Below are positions 3,281-30,906 of a stretch of DNA of 64,000 bases, piece after piece; position 1 is the stretch's first letter, and every line of letters begins with the position of its first letter. The stretch comes from an uncultured SAR86 cluster bacterium (lineage in GTDB: Bacteria; Pseudomonadota; Gammaproteobacteria; Magnimaribacterales; AG-339-G14): positions 1-64,000 of the forward strand of contig CACIUX010000003.1 of the NCBI GenBank assembly GCA_902589965.1. Direction: 5' to 3'. The notes under the pieces were generated by a model. The model saw only the letters and a program-made list of their open reading frames with translations. It searched no databases and was not told where the DNA came from. Position numbers and translations under genes: made by a program.

Positions 3281-3342
3281 TGCTTACTCTCCAGCTTATA
3301 GAAAACACAATTTTACTTATAAAAATCATATTTACTAAGTTT

Positions 3343-6179: not shown

Positions 6180-6184
6180 AATAT

Positions 6185-6916: not shown

Positions 6917-6925
6917 ATGAATGAT

Positions 6926-10459: not shown

Positions 10460-10461
10460 TT

Positions 10462-11463
10462 TTATCCTTTAAATATTAATTTAGTCCCAGAAAAATCTAC
10501 TTTAAAATCAATGCAATTTTTTTCTCCAAAATACCTTATAAATTTTTTTTTGGCATCCAAAGGCATGATGAAAAGAAAAAAGCCTCCGCCTCCTGCACCA
10601 CATAACTTTCCTCCATAAGCCCCCATACTTAATCCTTTATCATACATTTCATCTAAATAATCAGCTGATATCTTTTTTGTGAGTGATCTTTTGATCATCC
10701 AATACTCATTCAGCAATAAGCCTATTTCTTTAATAGTATTGTCATTGTATTTTGTGAGAAGTTTTTCAGCATCAGAAACGGTTTTAAATATTTCATTGAG
10801 GCTATTATTTAATCTTTTACTTTTTGTTTTTTTTATTTGTTCTGCTGCAATAGAGGAAGCACTTCTTTTTTTTCCAGTATGGACAAGCAGCATGCTTTCT
10901 TCAAGCTCAGATAGATTTCTCTCTGAAAAATTGATTGATTTTCTAGTTATTTTGTCCTTATGAAAAGAAAATTTATTAAAACCTCCATAAGCAGAATGTA
11001 AATGGTCTTGAACACCAACATCCTCTTTCAGAATATTTCGATCTAAAAAAATTGCTTTATCAGAAAGTTTTTTTTTAGATAACTTGTTCCCTTTAATTTC
11101 AGAGATCAATTTTATGAATCCAGTTGAAAAGCTAGATGAACTTCCTAGTCCTGAGCTAGCAGGTAAATCAGCTTGAAAAGAAAAATCAACAGGTGAATTA
11201 AAATTTAAGTTTTTCATACCTTCTCTAACACAAGGATGAAAAATATCATTTATCTTTGTTGTAGTTTCAAGTTTTGAGTAAGCCAATCTATATTTGTAAT
11301 CAACATAATCATTCGTGAGCAATCCACCCAAGTAAATATACTTATTTATAGAGAAACCAATTACAGAGCCTTTATTTTCTTCAAAATATTCTGGATAGTC
11401 AGTTCCACCGCCAAATAAACTTACCCTGTAAGGCGATCTAACGAGGAAATATCTCTCAGACAT
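10462..11463 (-). CDS. GHMP kinase, HddA-like heptose 7-phosphate kinase
   Basis: This 333-residue protein has the full GHMP kinase set: YRVSLFGGGTDYP near residues 12-24, the ATP loop PASSGLGSSSS near residues 101-111, and the C-terminal glycine-rich motif CGAGGGGFFL near residues 288-297. It matches D-glycero-alpha-D-manno-heptose 7-phosphate kinases in length and motifs. Together with gmhA at 12391 it suggests synthesis of an activated manno-heptose. The remaining steps of the GDP-heptose route (GmhB phosphatase, HddC guanylyltransferase) are not in this window. Its start overlaps the previous gene's stop by 8 bp (ATGTCTGA). Fucose kinase-like activity is an alternative within the family. 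Confidence 0.85.
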   Translation of the reverse strand: MSERYFLVRSPYRVSLFGGGTDYPEYFEENKGSVIGFSINKYIYLGGLLTNDYVDYKYRLAYSKLETTTKINDIFHPCVREGMKNLNFNSPVDFSFQADLPASSGLGSSSSFSTGFIKLISEIKGNKLSKKKLSDKAIFLDRNILKEDVGVQDHLHSAYGGFNKFSFHKDKITRKSINFSERNLSELEESMLLVHTGKKRSASSIAAEQIKKTKSKRLNNSLNEIFKTVSDAEKLLTKYNDNTIKEIGLLLNEYWMIKRSLTKKISADYLDEMYDKGLSMGAYGGKLCGAGGGGFFLFIMPLDAKKKFIRYFGEKNCIDFKVDFSGTKLIFKG

Positions 11464-12385: not shown

Positions 12386-12390
12386 ATGAT

Positions 12391-12954
12391 TTATAAAAAG
12401 TTTTTTTCAATTCCCAAACAAATATAATGATAAGCAATGAGATGACCTTGTTGAATCATTGGTACTGATTTTGAAGGAATTCTAATAATAAAATCGGAAA
12501 ATTTTAAAAGATCGCCGCCTGTTTCACCCGTAAGGCTAACGATGTTTAACCCTTTTTCTTTTGCTACTTCTGCTGCTAACAAAACATTTTTCGATGTCCC
12601 CGAAGTACTTATACATATTAAAGATCCACTCACAGAAGCGTGCGCCTCTACTTGCCTTGAAAAAACAGTTTCATAAGAGTAATCGTTTGACCAAGCAGTA
12701 AGTATGGCAGGGTTTGAAGAAAGAGAGATAGCATTTAAAGCTTTTCTTTCTTCAAGAAACCTACCTACCAATTCTCCAGTTATATGCATTGCGTCACTAG
12801 CAGAACCACCATTACCACAGACAAGAAGAGCTTTATTTGAAGATATTGATTTTGAAATTAGGTCAATAGATCCAAGAATATTTTCCTTTATATCATCAGA
12901 ATTTAATTTATGCAGAACCTGCAAAGAATCATCAAGATATTTGTCCCAACTCAT
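12391..12954 (-). CDS. gmhA: D-sedoheptulose 7-phosphate isomerase GmhA
   Basis: This 187-residue SIS-domain protein has the GmhA motif CGNGGSASDAMH at residues 46-57 followed by ELVGRF, whose glutamate (61) aligns with the catalytic Glu65 of the E. coli enzyme. A second SIS motif, STSGTSKNVL, follows, and the C-terminal QQGHLIAYH supplies the second catalytic position, histidine 171. GmhA isomerises sedoheptulose 7-phosphate to D-glycero-D-manno-heptose 7-phosphate in the cytoplasm, the first step of heptose synthesis for LPS. The neighbouring HddA-like kinase suggests that this copy feeds the GDP-heptose branch. DiaA-like or other SIS roles are less likely because both catalytic residues are present. 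Confidence 0.88.
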   Translation of the reverse strand: MSWDKYLDDSLQVLHKLNSDDIKENILGSIDLISKSISSNKALLVCGNGGSASDAMHITGELVGRFLEERKALNAISLSSNPAILTAWSNDYSYETVFSRQVEAHASVSGSLICISTSGTSKNVLLAAEVAKEKGLNIVSLTGETGGDLLKFSDFIIRIPSKSVPMIQQGHLIAYHYICLGIEKNFL

Positions 12955-12961
12955 AATAATT

Positions 12962-14020: not shown

Positions 14021-14037
14021 ATCTCAATAATCCTTAA

Positions 14038-14826: not shown

Positions 14827-16158
14827 CTAAAAATTAATTTCTCTTTTGTAATTATTTCTTCTGTGAATGAAATAAATAGTTACCACAAATGGAAAAGCAG
14901 ATGATGCGACTATTGCATAAAAAATAGGTAATGTTTGTATGCTGAAATATTCTAATGCGATGTAGTTTGAAATGAAGACCGAAATAGAAAATAAAACAGA
15001 AATTTTCATAATTGGATCAATTTTGTGGGCTCTTAAATATGCACTCATTGGGGCACCTAAACTTGAAAATATCATCCCAATTGCAAAATAAATAAAACTA
15101 GACATTGGCATTAGCCTTGTAAGAATGTCAGGAAATAAAGACTCCACAAAATAGAAAGATATTAAAATAGAGATAATCAGAAGAATGCCCAAAATAAGAA
15201 CTATTAAAGCCAATCTCATTACAAGCTTATCCATAGCTTTGATATCTTTATTTGAAGCTAAAACACCAAATTTATGGAAATTCACAGAAACTAAGACAGT
15301 TGTCAAACTTATTACTGCTAATAAAATAGTCAAGCTTAAGCCCATCCTACCTGCATCTTCAGCGCCATAAAATACAAAAGTCATTGGCGTTATAGTAGAA
15401 ATCGCAAAAATACCTGATAAAGCGCTTATTGCAATTTTTATTTGCAAAGGAAGCAGGTCCTTAATCCAATTGAATGAATTTGATATTTTTTTAATATTGG
15501 ACTTAAATAGCTGAAAAAAAATCTTCCTATACTTATGGATAAAAAATAAGTATGGAATCATGGAAATCAAATATGAAATAGGTAAACTCCAAAGGTTAAA
15601 ATCTAAGTAAAGGAATAACCAAAAGGATAATGCAAATACCACTGTGTAAAAAAGCCTAAGAAGATAAACATCCTTTAATTTGCCAAGACCTTCCATAAAG
15701 CTCAAAAATAATAATGTAAAAAGATTAAAGGACAAAAAAATTACAAAAGCTATCCATGGGAATTGCCATGAAATTTTTTCTGAGGATGAATCAAAAATTA
15801 AAAAGCCAATTATTAAGGATGAAAATAATAGACACAAAGAGGCGCCTAGATACCACTTGAGCGCAAATTTAAATATTTCTTTAAGATAATTTAATTTAGA
15901 AAGTGTTCCTTTTAAAAATTGTTTATGAAATCTAATTTCATCTATCTCATGCGATATGAAAGTAATTAATACTTGAGTTAAACCAAGTTCGAATAGCAAA
16001 ATTAAACTCAAAAAACTTTGAAAAGTAGAAATAAATCCTTGAGTTTCAAGATCTACATATTTATAGATAAAGTAAACCGAAATTGGTCCAATTAAAATGC
16101 TAAAAATTCTTGTTAAGAATGCATAATGTGATTCATTAATGTTTTTAAAAACTTTCAC
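14827..16158 (-). CDS. Wzx-like polysaccharide flippase
   Basis: This 443-residue protein has about twelve hydrophobic segments spread evenly along its length, alternating with short basic loops, as in the MOP/PST exporter superfamily that includes Wzx. The N-terminus (FLTRIFSILIGPISVYFIYKY spans about residues 14-34) and the pattern of paired helices fit flippases that move undecaprenyl-linked repeat units across the inner membrane. It is the only candidate for that role in the window and pairs with the Wzy- and Wzz-like proteins. The start is GTG, 10 bp after the dehydrogenase gene. Sequence conservation in this family is poor, so the call rests on topology, length and context. Confidence 0.75.
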   Translation of the reverse strand: MKVFKNINESHYAFLTRIFSILIGPISVYFIYKYVDLETQGFISTFQSFLSLILLFELGLTQVLITFISHEIDEIRFHKQFLKGTLSKLNYLKEIFKFALKWYLGASLCLLFSSLIIGFLIFDSSSEKISWQFPWIAFVIFLSFNLFTLLFLSFMEGLGKLKDVYLLRLFYTVVFALSFWLFLYLDFNLWSLPISYLISMIPYLFFIHKYRKIFFQLFKSNIKKISNSFNWIKDLLPLQIKIAISALSGIFAISTITPMTFVFYGAEDAGRMGLSLTILLAVISLTTVLVSVNFHKFGVLASNKDIKAMDKLVMRLALIVLILGILLIISILISFYFVESLFPDILTRLMPMSSFIYFAIGMIFSSLGAPMSAYLRAHKIDPIMKISVLFSISVFISNYIALEYFSIQTLPIFYAIVASSAFPFVVTIYFIHRRNNYKREINF

Positions 16159-16168: not shown

Positions 16169-17212
16169 TTAATCTTCTAATTCCATATCAATGATTGGTC
16201 TTAAAACCTTTCCTTTCTCAAAGTCGCTTACTGCCGTATTTATGTCTTTCAACTTATAAGGCTTTGAGAGATATTTCTTAGAAGGAATTTTTCCTTCTTT
16301 AATTAATTTTATATATTTTTTGATATCTTTATCTGGAAGAGTTTCACCTCCCCAGGTTCCAGTGAGTTTCTTTCCAGATATTAAGTCATAAGGATTAACT
16401 TTTATTAAGTCACCATGTGATGGGTTGCCAGCTAAAATAAATTGGCCAGAATTGTTGAGGCTTCTTATAGCTAGATTAATTACCTCTGTTATTCCTGTAG
16501 CGTCAATGGAGTAATCGAGGCCATTGCCTTTATTAAGTTTCAAAATTTGGTTTAGATTTTTTTTTGGCTCGTATATCAAACAATCTGATGCTCCAAAATC
16601 TTTAGCAAGAGCTAGTTTCTTTCTATTGATATCTATGGCAATTATCTTTCTAATCCCTTTAGCCTTAGATGCCATGATTGAACTTAAACCAATACCTCCA
16701 CATCCAAAGATGGCAATTGAATCAGATTTCTTAATATTACTATTATTTAAAACAATACCTGCGCCAGTTGGTATGGCACACCCCAGCATACAGGCTTCTA
16801 TAAGAGGAAAATTTTTGGGAATTTTCACTAATCTATTCTCAGATATGACTGCTACTTTCAAAAAAGTTGAAATTGGGCCGGAGTTAATATTTTTTTTCGA
16901 TGATTTGTATATGCAGCCCCCAGAATCTATACCCTCGCCTTTAATCCACGTCAGAACTACATGGTCATTTTTAGAAACTTTAGTCACGCCAGCGCCAATT
17001 TTTAATACTTTGCCTGAACCTTCATGACCTAAAGTATGAGGAAGAAACTTATCCTCTCCCTTTTTTCCTTTTATTTCATTTAGTTGAGAGTGACATATGC
17101 TTGAATAAGATATCTCAACAAGAACTTGCCCTCTTTTAAGCCTTGGTATATCTAAATTTCTAAGTTCAAGTTTTTCATTTATCTCATTAAGAACAGCAGC
17201 TAAGGTTTTCAT
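16169..17212 (-). CDS. Zinc-dependent medium-chain alcohol dehydrogenase
   Basis: This 347-residue MDR protein has the catalytic zinc ligands: a cysteine in SSICHSQ near residue 39, GHEGSGKV with histidine and glutamate near residues 62-63, and the cysteine of MLGCAIPTGAG near residue 142. The NAD-binding motif is FGCGGIGLSS near residues 168-177. The lobe that normally holds the structural zinc has only one cysteine (GIDSGGCIYKS), so that zinc is probably absent. It most resembles class III/zinc ADH enzymes, but its place in a polysaccharide locus suggests oxidation or reduction of a sugar or polyol. It is 9 bp downstream of a glycosyltransferase gene and 10 bp upstream of the flippase gene. 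Confidence 0.82.
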   Translation of the reverse strand: MKTLAAVLNEINEKLELRNLDIPRLKRGQVLVEISYSSICHSQLNEIKGKKGEDKFLPHTLGHEGSGKVLKIGAGVTKVSKNDHVVLTWIKGEGIDSGGCIYKSSKKNINSGPISTFLKVAVISENRLVKIPKNFPLIEACMLGCAIPTGAGIVLNNSNIKKSDSIAIFGCGGIGLSSIMASKAKGIRKIIAIDINRKKLALAKDFGASDCLIYEPKKNLNQILKLNKGNGLDYSIDATGITEVINLAIRSLNNSGQFILAGNPSHGDLIKVNPYDLISGKKLTGTWGGETLPDKDIKKYIKLIKEGKIPSKKYLSKPYKLKDINTAVSDFEKGKVLRPIIDMELED

Positions 17213-18478: not shown

Positions 18479-19141
18479 TTACTGGGCAAAAAACCAATAG
18501 TAATCACCTTTATAGCCGACTTCTTCAAAAAGTTTTAGCCAATCATCACAATGCATGTATGTTAAAGCAGTTAAATTCCATTTCAGCATTGCTTCTCTTC
18601 CATTGTCATCTCTCCAAGCATCATTCATTACAAAGGCATCTTTCTTGGTGACTCTGGAGATTTCTCTTAAGGCTTGCTTACAATCTATTTCCGGGAGATT
18701 ATGAATAGTATTTATAGCTATTACTAAATCAAAGTAGTTATCTTCAAAAGGAATTGAGTTAGCATTTGCTATAGTAATGTTATTTTTTTGAGTATCTATT
18801 GCATTATCTTTTGCATATTTCGATACATCTATCCCTTTTATTTCAGAATTTGGTAAAGCGATACTCAAGTCATGCATCATAAAGCCTTTAGCACAACCAA
18901 CATCTAAAATTTTTGAATTTTCGTTCAAAGAATAATAACTTATTATGTAATCAACTGTCTTTTTCCAAAACTTTGGATTATATTTATACCCACCATATCC
19001 TGTAAGCCTATCCCTATCAAAATATTCAATATCAAATTTTCTTGCAATAGCTCTATCTTTTTCAGAAATAAGTTCACCTCTTTCTTCTATAGGCCTTTTT
19101 GATCGAGGATAATATTTAAGAAGATTTATTTCTTTTCCCAT
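18479..19141 (-). CDS. Class I SAM-dependent methyltransferase
   Basis: This 220-residue protein contains a compact methyltransferase domain: motif I ILDVGCAKGFM near residues 79-89, an acidic residue at the end of strand 2 (GIDVSKYA), motif NANSIPFEDNYFDLVIA, and a following INTIHNLPEID. This is the Methyltransf_11/25 pattern used by many small-molecule methylases. No substrate-specific feature was recognised. It lies 3 bp downstream of an FkbM methyltransferase gene, so two methyl groups may be added to the same glycan, or one protein may act on a nucleotide-linked precursor. Confidence 0.82.
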   Translation of the reverse strand: MGKEINLLKYYPRSKRPIEERGELISEKDRAIARKFDIEYFDRDRLTGYGGYKYNPKFWKKTVDYIISYYSLNENSKILDVGCAKGFMMHDLSIALPNSEIKGIDVSKYAKDNAIDTQKNNITIANANSIPFEDNYFDLVIAINTIHNLPEIDCKQALREISRVTKKDAFVMNDAWRDDNGREAMLKWNLTALTYMHCDDWLKLFEEVGYKGDYYWFFAQ

Positions 19142-19144: not shown

Positions 19145-20068
19145 TCAATACCACTGATTCTTATTTGAGATAAATATTGAACCTTCCCTATGAGACGTGG
19201 GTAAATCGTCTATAGAATTAACTTTTCTCCACGATTTTTTTTGAGAGTAAACTGAAACTTGCAATGTTGAAAAGTATTCCCAGAATTCAATTCTATTTTT
19301 CTCAGTTGAAATTTCAGCTATAAAATCTGAATTATTAAAATGTTGTTCTTCAAAACTTTTTAAAATATCTACTTCTGAACCCTCTACATCGAGCTTAAAT
19401 AGATCAAATTTGTTGCTCAGATTTTTTGCATCCTCTACTTCAACTTCATAAACATCAACAGGTCCATAACTTTCCTTTTTATCATTGATATAGCTGCCAG
19501 TTGTATTATTGACGATTTTGGTGAATTCAGCTTTACCAGAATAATTTGAAACAGCCTTTTGATGAAAAGTGTTATTTGAAAAACCTTCTAAAAAATCTTT
19601 TGCTATTACCGAATGATTGATATCAGGTTCATAAGAATGTACTTCATAGCCCAGAGAACATAAAATTTTGCTATGAAGTCCAACGTTTGTGCCAATGTCA
19701 CAAACAGTCTTATATCTTTCCTTATTTTTTTTATAAAACATATAAATGAATAACTCGTCTATACCAAAAAAGTGCCTCGAATTAATATTTCCCATTTCCA
19801 TAAAGGGGAAATCAATCTTAATATCTAAAATTTTCTCTACTGTGTTATTGAGACTATAGTGTGATGCATATCGCAATATAAGTAGATTTTTAAAAAAAAT
19901 ATAAATTGAGGAGCTTGGATTTTGTAGCTCTGGATTAGACCAAAAAAATTCAATACAATCATCAACAGAAAAGTTTAAATCTTCGGCATTGAAATCTCTG
20001 TAAGTTAAGTCTTCAAGAGAGTTTAATAGGCTATTGAAATCCTTTTCGGAAATTTCTTTATTTGACAT
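19145..20068 (-). CDS. FkbM-family methyltransferase
   Basis: In this 307-residue protein the SAM-binding motif VCDIGTNVGLHS is near residues 121-132, HSYEPD follows, and the FkbM hallmark FKLDVEGSEVDIL is near residues 224-236. The N-terminal 110 residues are an extra region without a recognised domain. FkbM enzymes typically O-methylate sugars. This is one of three members in the locus; they differ in length and N- or C-terminal additions, suggesting separate methylation targets. It is 22 bp downstream of the SDR gene and 3 bp upstream of another methyltransferase gene. Confidence 0.83.
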   Translation of the reverse strand: MSNKEISEKDFNSLLNSLEDLTYRDFNAEDLNFSVDDCIEFFWSNPELQNPSSSIYIFFKNLLILRYASHYSLNNTVEKILDIKIDFPFMEMGNINSRHFFGIDELFIYMFYKKNKERYKTVCDIGTNVGLHSKILCSLGYEVHSYEPDINHSVIAKDFLEGFSNNTFHQKAVSNYSGKAEFTKIVNNTTGSYINDKKESYGPVDVYEVEVEDAKNLSNKFDLFKLDVEGSEVDILKSFEEQHFNNSDFIAEISTEKNRIEFWEYFSTLQVSVYSQKKSWRKVNSIDDLPTSHREGSIFISNKNQWY

Positions 20069-20090: not shown

Positions 20091-20912
20091 TTATATATCA
20101 ACTACTTTGTTGTTGCCCTCTCTTCTTAATTTATACAAATCTTTTGAAATCTTTAGTTCTTCTTCAAGTTTCTTATGACCCCATTTATCATGCACAACAG
20201 AAAAATTTCTACCACTAGTTAAACTTTTATCGGCTTCATCAATCCATCTTAGGCATTTAAAAATATCATCAAAAGAAGTGCCTTGATCACCTGAGTTCAT
20301 AAATTCAAGAACTCTTTTATAATTATCTCCCGCTGTCTCTTTTGCTTTAAGGGTTTCATAATGTGTTTTTGTCCTCACGAAACCAGGGCCAATTATTTGA
20401 ATTTTTAAGTCATCATATTCAGAGTCAATTAGCTCGCACATTTTAATTAAACCTATTTTTGAAACACAATATGCGGAATAATGTTTCATAGCAGAATTTG
20501 TTCCTCCTCCAGCCATTAAATTAATGCACGAAATTGTTGATTTATCTCTAAATTCATAAAGTCCATGAATTATTTTCATTTGATTGGTGAAGTTAAGTAA
20601 AATTGATCTTTCCCATTTGTTAAAGTCAATTTCAAAAAAGTTTCCTATAGGCTCACTTGAACCAATTGAGCTAAATAGATTAGTCCATTCAAATTTCTTA
20701 TTCTTGATATTTGTTAATAAAAATTCAATATCAGACTCATCTAAAACATCACATCTTAAAAGATCTACATTTTTGTATTTTTTTAAAGATATGACATTTT
20801 CATTTTCTTGCCTAAAAGTTCCCAGAACCTCAAACCCTACATCTGAATACCTTTTGCAAATATTAAAACCTATATCCGCATTTACCCCCAAAATAATTAT
20901 TTTATTATTCAA
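20091..20912 (-). CDS. Short-chain dehydrogenase/reductase
   Basis: This 273-residue classical SDR has a cofactor motif GVNADIGFNI near residues 9-18, a serine/asparagine region (INLMAGGGTNSA) where the catalytic serine is not obvious, and YSAYCVSKIGL near residues 138-148 with the YxxxK pair. The glycine motif departs from TGxxxGxG, as in several sugar-modifying SDRs. It overlaps the TPP enzyme gene by 8 bp (TTGAATAA), so the two are translationally coupled; a ketone made by that enzyme would be a natural substrate for reduction. The start is TTG. Substrate unknown. Confidence 0.8.
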   Translation of the reverse strand: MNNKIIILGVNADIGFNICKRYSDVGFEVLGTFRQENENVISLKKYKNVDLLRCDVLDESDIEFLLTNIKNKKFEWTNLFSSIGSSEPIGNFFEIDFNKWERSILLNFTNQMKIIHGLYEFRDKSTISCINLMAGGGTNSAMKHYSAYCVSKIGLIKMCELIDSEYDDLKIQIIGPGFVRTKTHYETLKAKETAGDNYKRVLEFMNSGDQGTSFDDIFKCLRWIDEADKSLTSGRNFSVVHDKWGHKKLEEELKISKDLYKLRREGNNKVVDI

Positions 20913-22638
20913 ATTTAACCCCTTTTAAATAAGGCTGCATGATACTTAAAGGTAAAGGAGTAAATGTTCCATCATCATTTGCCTTATAACCCTGTCTAAA
21001 AAGTTCCATTACATCTTCTTCTACAACAACCTCGCAAATAATTGGTCCTTTAGACTTATTTAGCTTTGCGACAATAAAGTCAACGTCAGATTTATGGTTT
21101 AGCTTTAGATAATCTATTTTAAATCCAGAGGCTAATCTTTCTATATCTGGCATTTTCAAAGACCAGTCTGGGTGAGTACCATAAAGCCTTCCCTCCAAAA
21201 ATTCTTTTTGCGTGTGTCTTATTGCTAGGTAACCATTATTATTAATGACACAAATTACTACAGGAATATTTTCAGATTTTATATTTTGTAAATCTTGAAT
21301 ATTCATAAGAAAACTTCCATCTCCAATTATGCAATACAACTTTTTAAATTTATTTGAAGCATTTACTCCTATTGTTTCTGCTAGGCCTGTGCCCATTGCA
21401 GATATAGCCGATGAACATATAATTCTTTGATTTTCCTTTAAAAAAGAACTTTGGAATCCGCAATACAATGCAGTACCGCCTCCGTCAACAATAATAGCAC
21501 TTGATTTTGGGGATTTTTGTGTGAGTTTTCTGAAAAAAAGATTTGGATTTGGTAAGGTATCTTGCTTAGGCTTGTACCAGTTTAGAGATTTTAAGTCTTC
21601 ATAGTCTGAAGTTAATGAATTTGTATTTTTCTTCAGATTTAAAGAAGACATAATCTTTAAAAAGTCTGATAGATCAGCGTTAATTTTTAGGTCGAATTTA
21701 ATATTTAAATTATTAAGTTGATCTTTATCAATATTTACAATTATTTTTTTTGAGTTTGGCGCAAAGGTATCTGTCAATGTTGTAGTTTGAGAAATGGAAA
21801 GATGAGTACCCAGACAAATAAGTAGATCAGATTTGAATAATGCTAAATTTGCTCCCCTTTGTCCTCTCATCCCTATAATACCTAGATTAGTTGAGTCGGA
21901 AGTCTCAAAAATATCAGCTGCTGTCCAAGTCGTTACAGCTTTAAGATTATTTTTTCTCAAGATATTCTTAATCTTTTCCTCTGATCTAGAAAGTCTCAAA
22001 CCGTACCCTAGAACAAATAATGGATTTTTAGAATTACTATAGAGCTTTTTAAAATTATCTAAATTTTTTATATTTGGATTATTTTTTATTTTTTTAACTT
22101 TATTTATTTTTCCTACTTTTTCTATATTTTCCCACTGAAAGTCTAATGGAATATCTATCCAAACAGGCCCAGGTCTTCCAGAGGTAGCCAACTGGATAGC
22201 ATCATTCATCACATTTACTACTTTCTCTTTATTTTCTATCAGAAAAGTCCCTTTAGTAATTGGTTTTACAATATCGAGAATGTTTGCCTCTTGAGTTCCA
22301 ACTTGTCTTACTTTTTTTCCATATGATAAATGACTAGATCTAACTTGACCTGATATAAAAATTACTGGAATCGAATCCTGCCAAGCACCCAAAAGACCTG
22401 TTAAAGCATTTGTACATCCTGGACCAGTAGTAATCACAGCACATCCTATCTCTCCCGTAACTTTTGAGTTCGCAGCAGCAGCAAGAGCAGCCGATTCTTC
22501 ATGATGATTATAAATAACATTAATACCTTCTTTCTCCAATGAATCAAAGATGTGAACAACTGCGCCTCCCTGAAGACCAAAAACCGAAGAGACACCATTT
22601 TTTTTAAGTGTTTTTGCTATAAAATCTGTAATCTTCAT
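20905..22638 (-). CDS. Thiamine-diphosphate enzyme, acetolactate-synthase-like (IlvB family)
   Basis: This 577-residue protein has the three-domain IlvB layout: a catalytic glutamate 47 in NHHEESAALA, the TTGPGCTNALTG stretch near residues 79-90, and the TPP/Mg motif GDGSFLMNIQ (GDG at 439-441) ending in NNNG near residues 467-470. No ilvN regulatory subunit is next to it. In a polysaccharide locus with an SDR coupled downstream and a PLP aminotransferase upstream, a biosynthetic carboligase is more likely than branched-chain amino acid synthesis. The precedent is YerE of Yersinia, which transfers a two-carbon unit from pyruvate to a CDP-keto-sugar. That specific role is inference; the family is certain. 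Confidence 0.85.
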   Translation of the reverse strand: MKITDFIAKTLKKNGVSSVFGLQGGAVVHIFDSLEKEGINVIYNHHEESAALAAAANSKVTGEIGCAVITTGPGCTNALTGLLGAWQDSIPVIFISGQVRSSHLSYGKKVRQVGTQEANILDIVKPITKGTFLIENKEKVVNVMNDAIQLATSGRPGPVWIDIPLDFQWENIEKVGKINKVKKIKNNPNIKNLDNFKKLYSNSKNPLFVLGYGLRLSRSEEKIKNILRKNNLKAVTTWTAADIFETSDSTNLGIIGMRGQRGANLALFKSDLLICLGTHLSISQTTTLTDTFAPNSKKIIVNIDKDQLNNLNIKFDLKINADLSDFLKIMSSLNLKKNTNSLTSDYEDLKSLNWYKPKQDTLPNPNLFFRKLTQKSPKSSAIIVDGGGTALYCGFQSSFLKENQRIICSSAISAMGTGLAETIGVNASNKFKKLYCIIGDGSFLMNIQDLQNIKSENIPVVICVINNNGYLAIRHTQKEFLEGRLYGTHPDWSLKMPDIERLASGFKIDYLKLNHKSDVDFIVAKLNKSKGPIICEVVVEEDVMELFRQGYKANDDGTFTPLPLSIMQPYLKGVKFE

Positions 22639-22646
22639 AAATTAAG

Positions 22647-23816
22647 TTATTTCAAATCTTTGATAAAGTTCTCAATCCTCACCGAAGCAGATAAGATATT
22701 TTTTTTGGAGTTTGCGAAACATAGCCTCACATATCCTTCTCCGCTCTTGCCAAAGTAACTACCGGGACAAGTAGCTACACCATGTTCATCTAAAAGCCTT
22801 TGAGAAAAAGTTACGTCATTCAATCCCGTTTCTTTGATATTTACAAACAAATAAAAGGCTCCTTCGGGTTTTATGCAACTAAGAAAATCTATTGAGTTTA
22901 TACATTTATAAATGAGATCTCTTCTCTCTTTAAATTCAGAAATCATATTTTTAATGTAAATTTGATCTGAGATAATTGCTTCAGTTGCAGCTGACTGTAT
23001 GAATGGTGGAACGCAGGAATTAAGGGTCTCAAGTACCAGAGTCATTTTTTTTATGAGCTTTTCGGGACCTGTGACTGCACCTATTCTCCAACCAGTCATA
23101 GCATAAGATTTGCTAAAAGAATGAATGATTACTGTTCTATCTTTGCAATGGTCTATAGAGCTGGGAGAGAAAAAGTTTTCTTCGAAAATCATTCTTCCAT
23201 AGACTTCATCGCTCAAAAGAAATAGATCATATTTTTCCGCTAAAGCATAAATTTGTTTCATTTCTGCTTCTCCTAGAACAGAACCAGTTGGGTTATGAGG
23301 GGAATTAATTAAAATAGCTTTTGTCTTAGAAGATATAACCTTTTCTAACTCATTGGGATCTAACTTAAAATGATTTGATTCTTGAAGTGGGATGTAAATC
23401 CCTTTTAAGCCAAGGAAATCAATTATTGATCTATAAGAAACAAAACAAGGATCAACCGTAATTATTTCGTCTCCCGGATCAGCAATTGTTGCTAGGCAAT
23501 AAAAAATTTGAATATTCGCTCCCTGAGTAACAAGAATTTGTTCAAAGGAGGGTTTAAAACCTCTCGATAAAAATGTTCTTTCAGCTGCTGCGGCCTTAAA
23601 TTCTTCTGAACCTGATGCAGATACATAGTGAGTATTTCCATCTCTAAGTTCTTGAATACATTTTTCAACGACATTAGGAGGTGACTCAAAATCTGGATCT
23701 CCGATTTCTAGGTGAATGATAGATTTACCTTGATTCTCAAGTTCTTTTGCCCTGGTCAAAATCTGAAACATCTTTTGTCCTGCAAGATTCTCTGTCGATC
23801 TAGAAAGTTTTCTCAT
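22647..23816 (-). CDS. PLP-dependent class I/II aminotransferase
   Basis: This 389-residue fold-type I aminotransferase has NSPHNPTGSVL near residues 171-181, the aspartate of LLSDEVYGR, and the PLP lysine 236 in SFSKSYAMTGWRIG. The tail VRLCFANS holds the substrate carboxylate arginine. It resembles aspartate/aromatic amino acid aminotransferases, which act on amino and keto acids rather than sugars; DegT-type enzymes are the usual sugar aminotransferases. Its place between E1-beta and the IlvB-like enzyme, with gaps of 2 and 8 bp, suggests that a 2-keto acid made or used by those enzymes is its partner. It could equally be a general metabolic enzyme caught in the locus. Confidence 0.85.
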   Translation of the reverse strand: MRKLSRSTENLAGQKMFQILTRAKELENQGKSIIHLEIGDPDFESPPNVVEKCIQELRDGNTHYVSASGSEEFKAAAAERTFLSRGFKPSFEQILVTQGANIQIFYCLATIADPGDEIITVDPCFVSYRSIIDFLGLKGIYIPLQESNHFKLDPNELEKVISSKTKAILINSPHNPTGSVLGEAEMKQIYALAEKYDLFLLSDEVYGRMIFEENFFSPSSIDHCKDRTVIIHSFSKSYAMTGWRIGAVTGPEKLIKKMTLVLETLNSCVPPFIQSAATEAIISDQIYIKNMISEFKERRDLIYKCINSIDFLSCIKPEGAFYLFVNIKETGLNDVTFSQRLLDEHGVATCPGSYFGKSGEGYVRLCFANSKKNILSASVRIENFIKDLK

Positions 23817-23818
23817 TA

Positions 23819-24868
23819 TTAAAATGGACCCTTAAACCAGTCTCCTGGAACATCATGGGGATGTATTTTTTTAAAGTTATTTAAAGATTTTGTTTTTTTT
23901 CCAAACATTTTAAGAACAGTCTTTGTAATCTCTAATGCGCCAGGATAATACTTATCAGTAAGTCCAAAACTTGTTGGTGAGGATAAATCATCTAAAGCTA
24001 ATCTATTAGGAGGAGATTTTAATTTTGATATTTCCATAGAAACTGATGCAACTATCTCGCTAGATACTGAAAAACTTTTAACAGATGAATCTATAGCTAA
24101 TAGTCTTTTGGTTTTATTGACTGATCTAATTATTCTTTTTATGTCCAGCGGACTTGTTGTTCTAATGTCAATAAGCTCGCATGAAATACCAAGCTTTTCG
24201 AGTTCCTTTACAGCATGCATTGATTCAACTGTCATGTAAGAAAGAGAAGTAATTGTTATATCACTCCCTTTTTTTATTACCTTTGCTTCCCCTACAGGAA
24301 CTCTATATTCTTCTACAGGTACTTTTCCTACCTGTCCATGAAGCCATCTATGCTCAAGAAATATTGTAGGATCATCATCGAAAATACTCTCCAGTAAGAG
24401 ACCTTTTGCATCATAAGGGTTTGATGGCATGACTACTTTTAATCCAGGAATATGAGAGAATATTGAATGAAGGTTTTGTGAATGTGTTGGACCTTGGCCC
24501 CACCCATGACCAACTATTAATCTTATCGTAATTGGTACAGAAGAAGTTCCCCCAAACATAATTTTCCATTTTGAAGCATTATTTATAATTTGATCCATTG
24601 CAAGAAGGAAAAAATCTACTCTTTGATGCACCATGACGGGTCTTGTACCCAGAAGAGAGGCGCCTATTCCAATACCAGTCATAGCATTTTCTGAGGTTGG
24701 AGTATCAAATACTCTTTCACTTCCAAATTTTTCTTGGAGGCCTGTAGTAGTTGAGAATACTCCTTTAGGATCAGGAACTCCTAGTCCAAAAGTGATGACC
24801 TCTTTTGAGGTTTTCATTGCTGAGAACATAGCCTCATTTATTGCTCTAGCAAATGAAATTTCTCTCAT
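23819..24868 (-). CDS. 2-oxoacid dehydrogenase E1 beta-like subunit
   Basis: This 349-residue protein matches the beta subunit of heterotetrameric TPP dehydrogenases (PDH, BCKDH, acetoin DH). It has FGLGVPDPKG and a TPTSENAMTGIGIGASL stretch at the N-terminus, RLIVGHGWGQGPTHSQ in the middle, and a transketolase C-terminal domain (about residues 210-330). It is 2 bp downstream of the alpha-subunit gene. No E2 acyltransferase, lipoyl domain or dihydrolipoamide dehydrogenase is encoded nearby, so the pair may act as a stand-alone decarboxylase or carboligase for a sugar-linked product. The tail after residue 320 (lysine-rich, ending GDWFKGPF) is not typical. Confidence 0.85.
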   Translation of the reverse strand: MREISFARAINEAMFSAMKTSKEVITFGLGVPDPKGVFSTTTGLQEKFGSERVFDTPTSENAMTGIGIGASLLGTRPVMVHQRVDFFLLAMDQIINNASKWKIMFGGTSSVPITIRLIVGHGWGQGPTHSQNLHSIFSHIPGLKVVMPSNPYDAKGLLLESIFDDDPTIFLEHRWLHGQVGKVPVEEYRVPVGEAKVIKKGSDITITSLSYMTVESMHAVKELEKLGISCELIDIRTTSPLDIKRIIRSVNKTKRLLAIDSSVKSFSVSSEIVASVSMEISKLKSPPNRLALDDLSSPTSFGLTDKYYPGALEITKTVLKMFGKKTKSLNNFKKIHPHDVPGDWFKGPF

Positions 24869-24870
24869 AT

Positions 24871-25821
24871 TTAAGACTGAATAGACCTGAATTGTTTGTA
24901 AGAAGGATATTTGGATTTATCAGCAAACTTATGCGCTTCTTCTATTTCATGAGCAAAGGACTCTGCTAGATTAAAATATTCATTTGATTTAATTCTTTTT
25001 CTTTGTGTCTCAATTGGATCTCTTTTTTTCCAGCTCATAAATTCTTCTTCGGTTCTGTACCCCAAATCGTTATCATAATTTGGGCCACAGTGTTCCCTCC
25101 ATCGATAAGTATCGAGTTCAATGAACTGAGGGCCCGCATTGTTGACTATTTTTTCTCGAATTAGCTTCGTTAAGGAAAATACTTCTTCAACATCATTTCC
25201 GTCTCCTTTATGGGTATCAATTCCAAGTGCTCGAACCATTTTGTATATCTTCCTATTTTCTGGTTGTCTTACTTCGAGTCCTGAGTAAACAGAATATAAA
25301 TTATTTTCACAAACAAAAAGAATAGGAAGTTTTTTGACAACTGCAAAATTTACTGCTTCATAAAAAACCCCCTCTTCAACTGCTCCATCTCCAAAAAAAA
25401 CGCAACTAATATTTTTTCTACGTTTCAGTTTAATTGATAGAGCCAAGCCTACAGCGACAGGGATAGTGTTCCCTACAATAGCAGTACTTCCCATAAAACC
25501 AGCTCTCTTATCAATAAGATGCATCGACCCGCCCATGCCCAATGAGCATCCTGTGACCTTGCCGTAAATTTCAGCAATCATAGATTTCAAACTTCCTCCC
25601 TTAGCAAGGTAATGAGCATGAGCTCTATGTGTACTTAAAACAAGGTCCTTTTTTTCTAAGGCCGAACATACCCCAGTAGCAATTGCTTCTTGACCTATTG
25701 AAAGATGAGTTGGGCATCTCATTTTTCCTTCACTATATTTTTCAGCTATTGATTCCTCAACCATTCTAATTCTCAGCATTGATTTAAATAGTTCTAAAGA
25801 GTTATTTCTGCTTTTATTCAT
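24871..25821 (-). CDS. 2-oxoacid dehydrogenase E1 alpha-like subunit
   Basis: This 316-residue protein has the alpha-subunit TPP site of PDH/acetoin-DH-type enzymes: STHRAHAHYLAKG near residues 63-75, the GCSLGMGGSMH segment, and the TPP motif GDGAVEEG at 144-151 closing at CENN (171-174). It would form the active site with the beta subunit encoded 2 bp downstream. Its start overlaps the stop of the epimerase gene (ATGA), which ties the enzyme to sugar-nucleotide metabolism rather than central metabolism. Reaction and acceptor are unknown. Confidence 0.86.
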   Translation of the reverse strand: MNKSRNNSLELFKSMLRIRMVEESIAEKYSEGKMRCPTHLSIGQEAIATGVCSALEKKDLVLSTHRAHAHYLAKGGSLKSMIAEIYGKVTGCSLGMGGSMHLIDKRAGFMGSTAIVGNTIPVAVGLALSIKLKRRKNISCVFFGDGAVEEGVFYEAVNFAVVKKLPILFVCENNLYSVYSGLEVRQPENRKIYKMVRALGIDTHKGDGNDVEEVFSLTKLIREKIVNNAGPQFIELDTYRWREHCGPNYDNDLGYRTEEEFMSWKKRDPIETQRKRIKSNEYFNLAESFAHEIEEAHKFADKSKYPSYKQFRSIQS

Positions 25822-26765
25822 TTATCAAGGTTGAGTTTCTTCATCGTTCGCACAGTATGATAATGATCATTATCAGAAATTAAACCATTTTTATATTTTT
25901 CAATAATTTCATCTATAGCATCTGAAACTTCAAATTTTTGTTTAAACCCTGTAGAGATTAATTTTGATGAATCCTGCCTGTAAGATCTTGGATCATTTGA
26001 TTCAGAAACTTCTATGTCAGCTTCTAATCTATCTGCAACCATTTCAGCAATTTTCATAATTGATATGTTTTCAAATCCAGCATTATAAAAACCTGATTCA
26101 ATTGAATTTTTATTTTGAATGAAGTGCTCATAAACTCTTATCATGTCCTTAATGTTTATGTTAGGTCTTACTTGATCCCCTCCAAAAACTGTAATTTTTT
26201 TGTTTTTTAAAGCTTGGAAGGTTAGCATGTTAACACTTACATCTAACCTCATTCTCGGAGACCAACCGCAAACTGTAGCAGGTCTGACGTTGATAATTTT
26301 TATCTCAGGTGAAAAACTCATTGCAACCCTTTCGGAGACCATTTTAGTTTTGTTATAAACAGAAATTGGAACAAGAGAGAGATCCTCTGTAACCTTTGGT
26401 TCATCTTTCACACCATAAACACTTCCAGATGAAGCATAGATAAACTGATTTACTCCCATTTTTATAGAATTTTCGACGAGCTTTTGGGTAGCCAAAACGT
26501 TAACTTCCCAGGAAAGAACTGGGTTCAAGTCCACTCCCGGATCATTTGCTATATTTGCTAAATGAATTACTGTTTCAATACCTTCAAAATATTTTTCATC
26601 CAAGTCTCTAACATCTTCCTTATAAATAGTTAAGTTTTTAGATTCCTCTAAATTTAATCCGAACCATTGTGTGTCAATAGCTATAATTTCGTGTTCTTTA
26701 CTCAATAGGTACGGTGTCAGAGATGATCCAACATACCCGCAAGCTCCAGTAACTAATATTTTCAT
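25818..26765 (-). CDS. NAD-dependent nucleotide-sugar epimerase
   Basis: This 315-residue extended SDR has VTGACGYVGS near residues 5-14, ASSGSVYG around residue 113, and catalytic YNKTK near residues 134-138. It resembles UDP-glucose 4-epimerase-type and related NDP-sugar enzymes. The protein is similar in layout to the one encoded at 11456-12385 (both have a VFG/VCG, SPRMRLD or SPQMRLD segment after the active site), so the two are likely paralogues. It overlaps the upstream gene by 1 bp and the E1-alpha gene by 4 bp. Confidence 0.86.
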   Translation of the reverse strand: MKILVTGACGYVGSSLTPYLLSKEHEIIAIDTQWFGLNLEESKNLTIYKEDVRDLDEKYFEGIETVIHLANIANDPGVDLNPVLSWEVNVLATQKLVENSIKMGVNQFIYASSGSVYGVKDEPKVTEDLSLVPISVYNKTKMVSERVAMSFSPEIKIINVRPATVCGWSPRMRLDVSVNMLTFQALKNKKITVFGGDQVRPNINIKDMIRVYEHFIQNKNSIESGFYNAGFENISIMKIAEMVADRLEADIEVSESNDPRSYRQDSSKLISTGFKQKFEVSDAIDEIIEKYKNGLISDNDHYHTVRTMKKLNLDK

Positions 26766-27757
26766 TATGATTTGTGTATATATTCCTGAGGCATTTTTTT
26801 TAGAATCTTAATATCCCTTTTTATCCAGTTTATAGTCTCAAGTAAGCCTTCGTCTAAAGTCTTATCCTCTTTCCATGAAAATTCTTTTCTTAATTTTTTA
26901 GAATCCAGTGAGTAAGATTGATCTTTCCCTAGCCTCTCATCTGAATAGATTACAATTTTATCAAAATCAGCTCCGAGTTTATTAAAAATCTTCTTAACTA
27001 AATCTCTTATAGAAATTTTCTCTTGAGTAGAAATGTGATAGGTTTCACCTATTTTTCCTTCAAGCAAAACCTTTAAAGTTGCTCTCGCTGTATCAGATAT
27101 ATTTATAAAAGATCTCTCAGAATATCCCCCCCCGTGAAGTTCCATTTTAGTTCCTAGATATGCTGACAGAATTGCTTTAGGAATGATTCTATATAATTGC
27201 TGTCCAGGTCCAAAAACATTTGCTGCTCTTGTAAACAAAACAGGAAAGTCATAATTTTTATAAAAGCTCATCAAGTGAAGGTCGCAAGCTGCCCTTGATG
27301 TTGCATAGGGTGTGCTCGGCATAAATATAAAATTTTCTTTTTTCCAACCCTCTATGCTTCCATAAACTTCTGGTGTGGAAAAATTTAAGTACTTTTCAAT
27401 GAAATCAAATTTCCTTATTTGATCATGAAAATCTACTTGCGAGATTAGATTAGTTTGATACCAATCTAAAGGATTCTTCCAACTTTCTGCCACCATGCCT
27501 TGAGCAGAAAAATTGACTACAAATTCAGGCTTATATTTTTTTATAAGAGAGATTATTTTCTCTAAATTTTTATTTAAATCTAACTTAAAAAAATTAAAGC
27601 ATTCAATAAAATTTTCATTTGTTTTATATTTTAAAAATGTATCATGAGGTTCTTTTGACCTTGAAACTCCAATAACCTTGTAATCTTCTGACAAAGCAAT
27701 GTCTACAAAATTGCTCCCTGAAAAAGAATTAGAGCCGAGTACGAAAATAGTTTTCAT
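26765..27757 (-). CDS. NDP-sugar dehydratase/epimerase-like SDR with altered active site
   Basis: This 330-residue protein aligns by eye with dTDP-glucose 4,6-dehydratase/GDP-mannose dehydratase enzymes, but three key sites differ. The glycine motif reads GSNSFSG, with a serine for the middle glycine. The dehydratase T-D-E triad region reads STPEVYGS at 127-134, so proline replaces the catalytic aspartate while glutamate is kept. The YxxxK pair is Y151-R155 (YATSR). Substrate-binding features such as NVFGPGQQ remain. It may be an epimerase-type or non-canonical member rather than a dehydratase. It overlaps both neighbours (1 and 4 bp), so it is expressed with them and is not obviously decaying. 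Confidence 0.8.
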   Translation of the reverse strand: MKTIFVLGSNSFSGSNFVDIALSEDYKVIGVSRSKEPHDTFLKYKTNENFIECFNFFKLDLNKNLEKIISLIKKYKPEFVVNFSAQGMVAESWKNPLDWYQTNLISQVDFHDQIRKFDFIEKYLNFSTPEVYGSIEGWKKENFIFMPSTPYATSRAACDLHLMSFYKNYDFPVLFTRAANVFGPGQQLYRIIPKAILSAYLGTKMELHGGGYSERSFINISDTARATLKVLLEGKIGETYHISTQEKISIRDLVKKIFNKLGADFDKIVIYSDERLGKDQSYSLDSKKLRKEFSWKEDKTLDEGLLETINWIKRDIKILKKMPQEYIHKS

Positions 27758-29268
27758 TTCAAACTCGAATTAACTGCCTTGACTAAATTAACTTTAGATA
27801 TTGATTGAGAATTTCCTTGATAAGAAATAGTTTCAGCAGCGGCTAAAGAGCCAAGAAAAAGAGAAAAAATATCTGGCTGTTTTGAAGCTAAAGAAAGAGA
27901 GGAAATAACAAAAAGAGAATCCCCTGCTCCAACTCTATCTTTAATGTCAGAGGCTAAAGCAGGCACAAAAATAAAATCTTTTGAACTTGTCTTCAAAATA
28001 CTTCCCTTTGTGCCTCTAGAAATTATCAAGTTATCGTATTTTTTTTGCTTTATTAGCTTGCTCATAAGGGACTCAATAGGAGATAGCTTATCTCTAAAAT
28101 GTTGTCGAATTTCTCCCTCATTAACAAGAAGCAGGTTTGCATCATTAAATTTTCTTAAGTTATAAAAGCCAGAATTAAATGAGTTTTGCTGTAAATTAAT
28201 TGCCAGAAATTTTGATTTTTTTTCTAAAATATTCACTGCTTTCTCAGTCAGTAGACCGTGTCCGAAATCCATTACAATTACTAGATCATAGTTTTTAATA
28301 TTTTTATTTAACTTTTCACAAAACTCTTTTTCTTTTTCTTTAGATAATGGATTATCGTTTAAGTCATAGATGCCAGAGATTTTAGAATTAGTATACTCAT
28401 CGACAAATCTAGTTTTAAGTATGGTGGGACTGTCATCTTTTTCTACGAATTCGTAGTCTACTTTTTTATTTAGTAGTTTTTTTATGGATCTCATTTTTGA
28501 ATCCCTGTCACCAATGTATGACAAAATTTTCACTTCCGAAGCAAAATCACATACATTATTTGCTCCAGCTAAAACTCCTCCAGCATAAATTTCTGAGGAA
28601 ATTTTTTTACTCACTAGAAATGGATCTTTGCCAGCTTTTCCAACTGTTTCGCAAAAAACATATTCATCTAGTATTGATTCCCCCACCAGCAAAACTTTTA
28701 GATTAGATAATTCATCTATGAGATCATTAGGAGATTTATCTTTTAAAGCTTTTTTCAAACTGGTTTTAAAGTCCTTTTTTTCAACTCTTTCTTTAAATAG
28801 ATTGTTATTAATCAGTTTTGAGGAGCTAAAAATATCTCCTGAAGTAAAAACTAATTTTCCTTTTATCCTTTCTACTGCTTTTTTTTCTAATTTGATATTA
28901 CCAGTCACATCATCTGAGAAATTTTTATAATCTGGTCCTTTGATGTAAAGAGATGGTTTAAGTAAAGACAAGGTATTGATAGCAGTTTCCCATTTATTAA
29001 TTGATACGTAATCAACACAGCTCAATGAAGCAAGGGCTTCAGCCCTTTGATAATGATTGAAAACTGGTCTTCCGGGACCTTTATTTACATACTCGTCTGG
29101 TGTAATAGTTACAATTAATTTGTCACATTTTGTTTTTGCCTCTTGAAGATATTTAATATGACCAAGGTGAAGTAGATCAAAAACTCCATGACAAAGACCT
29201 ACAGACTTTGATTTTTTTTTCTCAATTTCAACTTGTGTTTTAAGTTGATCTAGGTCAATTATTTTCAA
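27754..29268 (-). CDS. HldE-like bifunctional nucleotidyltransferase-PfkB kinase, domains in reverse order
   Basis: This 504-residue protein has an N-terminal cytidylyltransferase-fold domain (about residues 20-165) with CHGVFDLLHLGH, whose HxGH motif is at 34-37, and a YIKGPDYKN segment typical of heptose adenylyltransferases. Residues about 188-500 form a PfkB-family kinase with the AGGVLAGANN substrate loop and DRVGAGDSLF, with catalytic aspartate 450. E. coli HldE has the same two activities in the opposite order (kinase first). The pair would phosphorylate a heptose 7-phosphate and adenylylate the 1-phosphate. It starts at TTG, overlapping the upstream stop as TTGA. Substrate assignment is inferred by similarity to HldE. 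Confidence 0.8.
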   Translation of the reverse strand: MKIIDLDQLKTQVEIEKKKSKSVGLCHGVFDLLHLGHIKYLQEAKTKCDKLIVTITPDEYVNKGPGRPVFNHYQRAEALASLSCVDYVSINKWETAINTLSLLKPSLYIKGPDYKNFSDDVTGNIKLEKKAVERIKGKLVFTSGDIFSSSKLINNNLFKERVEKKDFKTSLKKALKDKSPNDLIDELSNLKVLLVGESILDEYVFCETVGKAGKDPFLVSKKISSEIYAGGVLAGANNVCDFASEVKILSYIGDRDSKMRSIKKLLNKKVDYEFVEKDDSPTILKTRFVDEYTNSKISGIYDLNDNPLSKEKEKEFCEKLNKNIKNYDLVIVMDFGHGLLTEKAVNILEKKSKFLAINLQQNSFNSGFYNLRKFNDANLLLVNEGEIRQHFRDKLSPIESLMSKLIKQKKYDNLIISRGTKGSILKTSSKDFIFVPALASDIKDRVGAGDSLFVISSLSLASKQPDIFSLFLGSLAAAETISYQGNSQSISKVNLVKAVNSSLK

Positions 29269-30111: not shown

Positions 30112-30906
30112 TCAGGATTCTCTCATATTCTTAAAAACTGTTTTTTTAAGTTTTTCGTTAGACTCATGAATTTGCTTAAAAATTTCTAAAGGAAGCATCT
30201 TTTTCTTGCAATATGCAGCAAGCGCTTTGGTATCTTTGGGAAGACAAACTCCTGCATAACCTCTCAATTCATCGTTAACTTTTAAATAACTGTCAGAATA
30301 TTCATTTCTTTCTAAAGCACCCAAAAGAACATTTTCATAATCTATAGATTCATACTTGCATATCTCGTAAATTTCATTGGCAAACACTATTCTCATTGCA
30401 TTAAAAACATTATGAAAATACTTTATCATCTCTGCTTCTGTTGGCATTACTGAAAAGATCTTCTCAGGCAAGCTTCCATGACTTTTTGAAATTATTTTTA
30501 TGATCTCTTCATCAGAACTTCCTATAATAAGCGTTCCATGATTTATAAAATCTTCTTTTGCGCTTCTTTCTTTGAGGAATTCTGGAACAAAACAGATTCT
30601 ATTTGAATAACTTTCTATGAATTTTTGTGTAGTTCCAGGCTCTACAGTACTTTTTATGGCGATTACTCCAGAATAATCTTTAATTTCCAACTCCTGAATA
30701 ACACTTTCTACGATACTCACATCGCAAGAACCATCCTCAAGTGAAGGACTCGGAACAGTAATATAAACTACTTCTGTTTCTAAAACTGCATCTAAAGAAG
30801 TGTTTAAGACTAAATCGTGTTCAAAAACTTCATTTCCAACTTCTTGAAAGCCCTCTTTACAAGCACTTCCAACTACTCCAGCAGAGCCAATAATTCCAAC
30901 TTTCAT
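30112..30906 (-). CDS. Short UDP-glucose/GDP-mannose dehydrogenase-like protein
   Basis: This 264-residue protein has the N-terminal NAD domain (VGIIGSAGVVGSA), the glutamate of VPEFLKE, lysine 162 in the central helix, and the catalytic cysteine 221 in GYAGVCLPKDT. All residues needed for the two-step oxidation are therefore present. It stops about 40 residues after that motif, so the C-terminal UDP-binding domain of the usual 390-450-residue enzymes is missing. The frame is intact and overlaps the upstream epimerase gene as ATGA, arguing against a decaying gene. A second protein of the same truncated type is encoded at 35071. It may use another substrate or oligomerise differently. Confidence 0.82.
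   Translation of the reverse strand: MKVGIIGSAGVVGSACKEGFQEVGNEVFEHDLVLNTSLDAVLETEVVYITVPSPSLEDGSCDVSIVESVIQELEIKDYSGVIAIKSTVEPGTTQKFIESYSNRICFVPEFLKERSAKEDFINHGTLIIGSSDEEIIKIISKSHGSLPEKIFSVMPTEAEMIKYFHNVFNAMRIVFANEIYEICKYESIDYENVLLGALERNEYSDSYLKVNDELRGYAGVCLPKDTKALAAYCKKKMLPLEIFKQIHESNEKLKKTVFKNMRES

Follow-up and report, generated by a model that had tools for sequence, protein, structure and literature searches.

Three thiamine diphosphate (ThDP) enzyme genes, namely E1-alpha, E1-beta and an IlvB-like gene, are packed together with an aminotransferase gene into a minus-strand run on contig CACIUX010000003.1 of an uncultured SAR86 cluster bacterium (assembly GCA_902589965.1). The contig was analysed over positions 1 to 64,000, a stretch referred to as the window from here on. 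In minus-strand order, a nucleotidyltransferase-kinase gene, two epimerase-family genes (Epi2 and Epi1), E1-alpha, E1-beta, the aminotransferase gene, the IlvB-like gene, a short-chain dehydrogenase/reductase (SDR) gene, an FkbM gene and a methyltransferase gene follow one another, and from the nucleotidyltransferase-kinase gene through the SDR gene successive genes overlap or lie at most 8 bp apart. The four core genes encode an E1-alpha-like subunit of an E2-less family, assigned by tree and signature (24871..25821; 316 amino acids (aa), Pfam E1_dh at 2.9e-59), an E1-beta-like subunit, assigned by residues and fold search (23819..24868; 349 aa, Transket_pyr and Transketolase_C), a class-I pyridoxal phosphate aminotransferase (22647..23816; 389 aa, Aminotran_1_2 at 9.3e-67) and an IlvB-like protein that is a candidate ThDP carboligase similar to YerE and JanthE (20905..22638; 577 aa, TPP_enzyme_N/M/C). 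Every Pfam match of these four proteins lies far above its cut-off. The core genes are separated by gaps of 8, 2 and 2 bp, the SDR and IlvB-like genes overlap by 8 bp and the E1-alpha and Epi1 genes by 4 bp. The wider window is of the surface-polysaccharide type, with genes for Wzz, glycosyltransferases, UDP-sugar dehydrogenases, DegT, PIG-L, GmhA-like and HddA-like proteins, and the polysaccharide locus adjoins uvrC and a gamma-glutamyltranspeptidase gene. The layout given in the original prediction, four genes 2-8 bp apart with the SDR downstream and two epimerase-family genes upstream, was recovered when the coordinates were re-derived, as was its O-antigen-type setting among Wzz, glycosyltransferase and UDP-sugar dehydrogenase genes. 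Its count of three holds for the ThDP genes and not for the enzymes: E1-alpha and E1-beta make up a single heteromeric enzyme, which leaves two ThDP enzymes for the three genes.

The E1 pair belongs to an E2-less family that is separate from the E1 component of pyruvate dehydrogenase (PDH), and it combines retained ThDP chemistry residues with a rebuilt pocket. E1-alpha reaches 285.6 bits against an NCBIfam PDH E1-alpha cut-off of 393.85, and E1-beta 265.6 bits against a cut-off of 321. A scan of genome contigs identified 203 E1 relatives, and in a quick E1-alpha tree nine PDH-type proteins, four of them encoded beside an annotated E2, were split from 88 E2-less E1 proteins with an SH-aLRT support of 99. 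Side by side with the Geobacillus stearothermophilus enzyme, the window E1-beta keeps E60 and H129 (equivalent to E59b and H128b), and this ThDP-activating Glu and pyruvate-contacting His are retained in 75/75 E2-less E1-beta proteins. The same 75/75 proteins carry Arg, Gln and Gly in place of F82b, T124b and P125b, the hydrophobic nest of His128-beta in the G. stearothermophilus enzyme (PMC2663715). The window E1-beta itself carries R83, W123, Q125, G126, R174 and W175. A search with the E1-beta structure model, which like that of the IlvB-like protein was built from a shallow alignment, finds E1-beta subunits, and the fold is also common to split transketolases.

In PDH, the His-bearing loop of E1-alpha assists transfer to lipoate. 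The window E1-alpha is devoid of the H-S/F-x-x-D active-site loop of lipoyl-dependent E1; its loop (TYRWREHCGPNYDNDLGYR) has three extra residues and reads EHCG in place of [GA]H[SF]. Since EHCGPNYD was one of six patterns used to find relatives, so that selection included part of the loop, the signature was rechecked in BLAST matches. Among matches of at least 249 bits, the altered loop is present in 29 and the E1-beta Arg in 28/28 that have an E1-beta, while matches of at most 236 bits are of the PDH type in 12 cases, with the Arg in 0/12. In pattern-free E2-less matches the loop reads [EGAQ]H[CVH]G. EHCG was consequently softened as a strict E1-alpha marker; since EHCGPNYD was itself a search pattern, it is safer to rely on the loop length and the E1-beta Arg. 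The 29 altered-loop matches include several in which alpha and beta are joined in one chain of about 695 residues. Fusion of E2-less E1-alpha and E1-beta into one chain of about 650-725 residues was also seen at loci L135, L137, L139, L142, L145-L150, L152, L153 and L155.

The E2 partner that a lipoyl-dependent E1 would need was found at none of the levels searched. No E2 or E3 homologue was detected in the window by tblastn with four E2 and three E3 query proteins, and no credible E2 or E3 is present in any of the best 80 related loci of the scan. Lipoyl E2 (PF00198) was found neither in the bacterium's own genome (1.12 Mb, 86% complete) nor in eight genomes of the same genus (60-94% complete), an absence that rests on these incomplete genomes. 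The own genome also yielded no AceE above cut-off and no second E1_dh protein. The E1_dh search of the eight genomes returned two weak matches only: a short, transketolase-like frame of 280 codons in genome G003, barely above the permissive family cut-off, and a transketolase-sized frame of 662 codons in genome G005, below it. With no E2 in nine genomes, an E1 that depends on a lipoyl arm would be without a partner here, and normal oxidative decarboxylation is, as initially proposed, unlikely. The genus as a whole appears to lack any lipoyl-dependent 2-oxoacid dehydrogenase, in contrast to other families of the order, which possess E1 and E2.

The E1 pair is part of a sugar-nucleotide gene set that recurs across loci and comprises a SIS isomerase, a kinase-nucleotidyltransferase, two epimerase-family genes, a methyltransferase and E1. 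Gene-set counts are based on the best 80 of the 203 relatives, which carry about 22 phylum labels, two of them archaeal; the labels stem from metagenome-assembled genomes, some of which are possibly mis-binned. Clustering of open reading frames placed E1-beta directly after E1-alpha in 70/73 testable loci. Where 8 kb of sequence is available on either side (42 loci), the flanks encode Epi2 (35/42), an RfaE-like nucleotidyltransferase-kinase (32/42), Epi1 (31/42), a SIS isomerase (31/42), a methyltransferase of 220 aa (28/42) and a Zn-dehydrogenase (22/42). The tail after E1 is variable and consists of SDR-FkbM-IlvB-like genes, a DegT pair or a split transketolase. A named and annotated example of the gene set is found on Azospirillum oryzae plasmid NZ_CP054615. 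In three Azospirillum plasmid loci (L115, L116 and L126), E1-alpha, E1-beta and DegT are compactly arranged, a gene of the epimerase family is close by, and the E1-beta signature takes the variant form WQGHRL; genes for a haloacid dehalogenase-type (HAD) hydrolase and a tetratricopeptide-repeat protein also lie nearby in L115 and L126. Some loci (L051, L052, L054, L073 and others) encode radical-SAM/SPASM-type proteins (clusters c22 and c23) next to the E1 pair. E2-less E1 pairs with the same signature are also encoded on Streptomyces linear plasmids (L113:9989-12035 and L123). An apparent association of E1 with IlvB-like genes at the level of whole genomes in the sampled Pseudomonadota (6 shared of 12, against 0.66 expected) was set aside as confounded by one genus and by different contigs.

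The IlvB-like protein is a single TPP_enzyme N/M/C chain with the catalytic Glu and a GDG...NN motif. Its best PDB match in phmmer is 8rph (274 bits, versus 223 bits for the best acetohydroxyacid synthase (AHAS)), which is the structure of JanthE (PMC12188165). A Foldseek search with its model (mean pLDDT 71.5, moderate confidence) returned JanthE chains as the top six matches, and in the tree it falls on the JanthE side of a split from AHAS with a support of 100, JanthE being a long branch. Scores remain below the NCBIfam acetolactate synthase cut-offs (334 versus 738 and 321 versus 538). Arg276 and Trp464 (E. coli AHAS II numbering), which position the second 2-oxo acid in AHAS, correspond to Ser283 and Thr476 here; the Arg is found in 6/6 and the Trp in 5/6 AHAS references. 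A second IlvB homologue on contig C10 of the same genome groups firmly with acetolactate synthases and is likely the housekeeping copy. The predicted analogy to YerE thus gains from the phylogenetic placement, with JanthE nearest by sequence, fold and tree and the AHAS substrate residues gone, and suggests that the IlvB-like protein is a YerE-like ketone carboligase, placed via JanthE. The nearest PDB structures of the aminotransferase are aromatic and aspartate aminotransferases. In a Methylophilaceae locus (L034), a 53% aminotransferase homologue lies two genes from a 56% IlvB-like homologue in the same locus as the E1 set, and because both recur together there, the aminotransferase probably makes the 2-oxo acid donor for the IlvB-like enzyme. 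This locus (positions 2626-15413) encodes three ThDP enzymes in all: the IlvB-like protein with aminotransferase and SDR, the E1 pair and a split transketolase. Viral contigs yielded no E1 relative and one YerE-like gene (L190:8001-9749, on an IMG/VR contig of 73.5 kb), whose product (34%) is apparently split across frames and lies among sugar genes.

The remaining genes of the run and its surroundings, all on the minus strand, hint at the sugar on which the carboligases may act. Epi1 (25818..26765; Epimerase, 1.3e-35) is an extended SDR with an SSGSVYG motif, and its best PDB match is 6vo6 at 118 bits, the next being 84 bits. Its nearest structures, 6vo6 and 6vo8, presumably represent the Campylobacter jejuni heptose C4-dehydrogenase Cj1427. 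Epi2 (26765..27757) resembles nucleoside diphosphate (NDP)-sugar 4,6-dehydratases, with dTDP-glucose 4,6-dehydratases as best PDB matches and a STPEVYG motif, and nearly all of its homologues carry a motif of the [ST][ST]PEVYG type. The nucleotidyltransferase-PfkB kinase fusion (27754..29268; CTP_transf_like and PfkB) has HldE-like domains in reversed order. Together with the recurrent SIS isomerase, a GmhA-like sedoheptulose-7-phosphate isomerase (12391..12954; TIGR00441, 175 bits against a cut-off of 209), and an HddA-like, heptose-7-phosphate kinase-like GHMP kinase (10462..11463; NF049969, 117 bits against a cut-off of 600), it provides circumstantial indications, by family resemblance only, of a heptose-type precursor. 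The SDR (20091..20912; TTG start, adh_short at 3.3e-15) is a candidate reductase of an acyl branch or keto-sugar; in several related loci, homologues of 36-44% immediately follow E1-beta. Two methyltransferases were identified by family match. One, dependent on S-adenosylmethionine (18479..19141), has 46-73% homologues in 55 related loci, usually directly before E1-alpha, and the other, the FkbM-type enzyme of the SDR-FkbM-IlvB tail (19145..20068), has 33-43% homologues beside SDR/IlvB in related loci. A Zn-dependent alcohol dehydrogenase (16169..17212) recurs in the gene set, with 40-51% homologues in 39 loci. Two proteins of the UDPG/MGDP-dehydrogenase family (window positions 30112-30906 and 35071-35928; 264 and 285 aa) match in their N-terminal and central domains and show no match for the C-terminal domain.

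We consider it likely that both ThDP enzymes encoded in the run form C-C bonds in a pathway to surface-polysaccharide sugars, in which the E1 pair and the IlvB-like enzyme probably build unusual branched sugars. The carboligase role that was predicted for the E1 pair is consistent with the separate E2-less clade, the rebuilt active site and the sugar-nucleotide gene set. We infer the donors, acceptors, order and product of the pathway as follows. The kinase-nucleotidyltransferase would activate a sugar phosphate, probably heptose-like, and Epi2 and/or Epi1 would convert the activated sugar to an NDP-keto-sugar. E1-alpha/beta may then decarboxylate pyruvate on ThDP, and since there is no lipoyl acceptor for the acetyl group, the resulting hydroxyethyl carbanion could add to the sugar carbonyl; an acetyl-branched sugar would result, in line with the proposal for AviB1/B2. 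The IlvB-like enzyme, acting in the manner of YerE and JanthE, might attach a second acyl unit either to that keto-sugar or to a neighbouring one, drawing on a 2-oxo acid that the aminotransferase encoded next to it provides. Reduction and methylation of the branch by the SDR and the methyltransferases would complete the product. A broader and so far tentative hypothesis, in our view rather doubtful as a whole, is that E2-independent E1 carboligases with a rebuilt His128-beta pocket are common and horizontally spread in surface-glycan synthesis across many bacterial phyla and some archaea, and that their combination with a YerE-like enzyme here leads to an undescribed, doubly branched sugar of nine or more carbons.

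Several observations weigh against this pathway. Sampled Pseudomonadota genomes with both enzymes carry E1 and the IlvB-like gene on different contigs, so that their pairing may not be obligate. The E1 pair of Streptomyces locus L113 lies beside genes for a condensation-domain protein, an acyl carrier protein and SARP regulators, not sugar genes. The GmhA-like and HddA-like matches to heptose families are below curated cut-offs, an aldehyde or a non-nucleotide intermediate might serve as the acceptor instead, and the antibiotic enzymes AviB1/B2, Pau11/12 and KbDH are likened to the E1 pair by description, not by sequence. The Streptomyces plasmid pairs, which share the signature, in fact invite another explanation, in which E1 is a non-sugar carboligase forming a small acyloin or 2-oxo intermediate for the aminotransferase or the IlvB-like enzyme, for instance in acyl or amino-acid decoration. 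It would also fit an aminotransferase of class I rather than of the DegT sugar type, yet most related loci embed the E1 pair in sugar-nucleotide genes, often with DegT sugar aminotransferases after it, and we regard it as unlikely. An evenly balanced case can be made for two ThDP enzymes that act on different sugars of the repeat unit, with no doubly branched sugar being formed, an arrangement that is compatible with the proposed branching pathway. Here, the lack of a second ThDP enzyme nearby in 28/42 E1 loci and the separability of the aminotransferase and IlvB-like genes from the E1 genes in L034 have to be set against the interleaving of both enzymes in one overlapping run in the window.

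Very improbable, in our estimate, is a transketolase-like E1 pair that extends a sugar phosphate by a two-carbon ketol unit, giving a higher-carbon sugar with no branching of an NDP-keto-sugar. The shared fold, the split transketolases in some of the same gene sets and the common SIS isomerases, which could convert the resulting ketose phosphate, are in its favour; the E1 sequences, however, match E1 of PDH and branched-chain 2-oxoacid dehydrogenase and not transketolase, and a true split transketolase co-occurs with the E1 pair in L034, where one of the two would be redundant. Least credible of all is the chance presence in a polysaccharide locus of relocated housekeeping genes, i.e. those for E1 of a pyruvate or branched-chain dehydrogenase and for acetolactate synthase. 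The original prediction had tied this explanation to clustering with such enzymes in a genome lacking other copies. The Pfam families fit and the genome does lack another E1-alpha, but E1-alpha, E1-beta and the IlvB-like protein all score under NCBIfam equivalog cut-offs and form separate clades instead of clustering with PDH or acetolactate synthases. The window has no E2 or E3, and the required E2 is missing from all nine genomes of the genus. AHAS is encoded on contig C10, no IlvN-like gene accompanies the IlvB-like gene, and the AHAS substrate residues are lost. Based on the absence of E2, the clades, the residues and the contig C10 copy, relocation was rejected as largely refuted.

If the branching pathway holds true, many genomes would contain sugar carboligases annotated as pyruvate dehydrogenase E1, and metabolic reconstructions would be affected, as for the present genus, in which no E2 was found. 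E1-beta Arg83 and Arg174 together with the E1-alpha EH[CV]G signature could serve to distinguish E2-less E1 from PDH E1. Confirmation would also make C2-branched and higher-carbon sugars, described to date mainly from a small number of O-antigens and from actinomycete antibiotics, a widespread element of bacterial surface chemistry and would open up a source of ketone-accepting biocatalysts. Cultured, non-pathogenic carriers exist, among them Azospirillum oryzae KACC 14407, Catenovulum sediminis and Vogesella aquatica, making the proposal testable.

Compared with the PDH E1p heterotetramer, the E1 pair retains the fold, the ThDP motif, Glu59-beta, His128-beta, Phe85-beta and the loop His, but differs in having no E2 or E3, in the change of the loop from H-S-x-S-D to E-H-C-G with three extra residues and in the Arg/Gln/Gly replacement of the His128-beta nest. 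The IlvB-like protein likewise shares with AHAS (IlvB/IlvG) the domain architecture and equivalents of the catalytic Glu47 and Gln110, whereas it lacks equivalents of Arg276, Trp464, Phe109 and Lys159 as well as a regulatory subunit gene and falls in a clade apart from the genome's own housekeeping copy. Precedents for the single-chain type are YerE (yersiniose), ErwE (erwiniose) and JanthE (PMC12247030). As in these systems, a single-chain TPP_enzyme N/M/C protein is encoded in a lipopolysaccharide (LPS)-type locus, and the IlvB-like protein has in common with JanthE a Thr where AHAS has Trp464, as well as an insertion close to residue 110. Identity to JanthE is nevertheless only about 28%, and the canonical GDG instead of CDG, the adjacent class-I aminotransferase and the E1 pair in the operon set the window apart from all three. 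The heptose modification pathway of C. jejuni, with its GDP-heptose C4-dehydrogenase Cj1427 (PMC10680097), is comparable in the GmhA/HddA-like genes near the run and in the logic of a keto-sugar intermediate; it contains no ThDP enzyme, and the similarity of Epi1 is moderate (118 bits).

The closest counterparts of the E1 pair are the alpha-KADH2 carboligases AviB1/AviB2 (avilamycin), Pau11/Pau12 (paulomycin) and KbDH-alpha/beta (kibdelomycin), for which addition of a pyruvate-derived C2 unit to a ketone has been proposed and, for KbDH, shown in vitro on ketones (PMC12247030, PMC4425429, PMC4753412). An E1 pair in a sugar-modifying setting is therefore not unprecedented: these actinomycete antibiotic enzymes, for which no E2 or E3 is described, are reported to attach C2 branches, so that E1-type branching chemistry has a precedent (PMC12247030, PMC4425429). 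No identifiable AviB1/B2-type example was present in our actinomycete genome sample, which consists mostly of small genomes. A review links YerE-like enzymes with LPS and the E1 type with secondary metabolites, and no O-antigen cluster with E1 genes was found in the openly searchable literature, the O-antigen papers examined included. Given this division, E1-type carboligases in surface-glycan loci across many phyla appear, within the limits of the open literature, to occupy a setting not described before; the in silico survey of Krug et al. (2024) may overlap with this. PDH-like E1-alpha and E1-beta genes inside a sugar cluster, with no E2 or E3 described, are common to both systems, but while the known examples belong to actinomycete antibiotic clusters, the E1 pair described here is part of a surface-polysaccharide gene set with kinase-nucleotidyltransferase and SIS genes that extends across many phyla.

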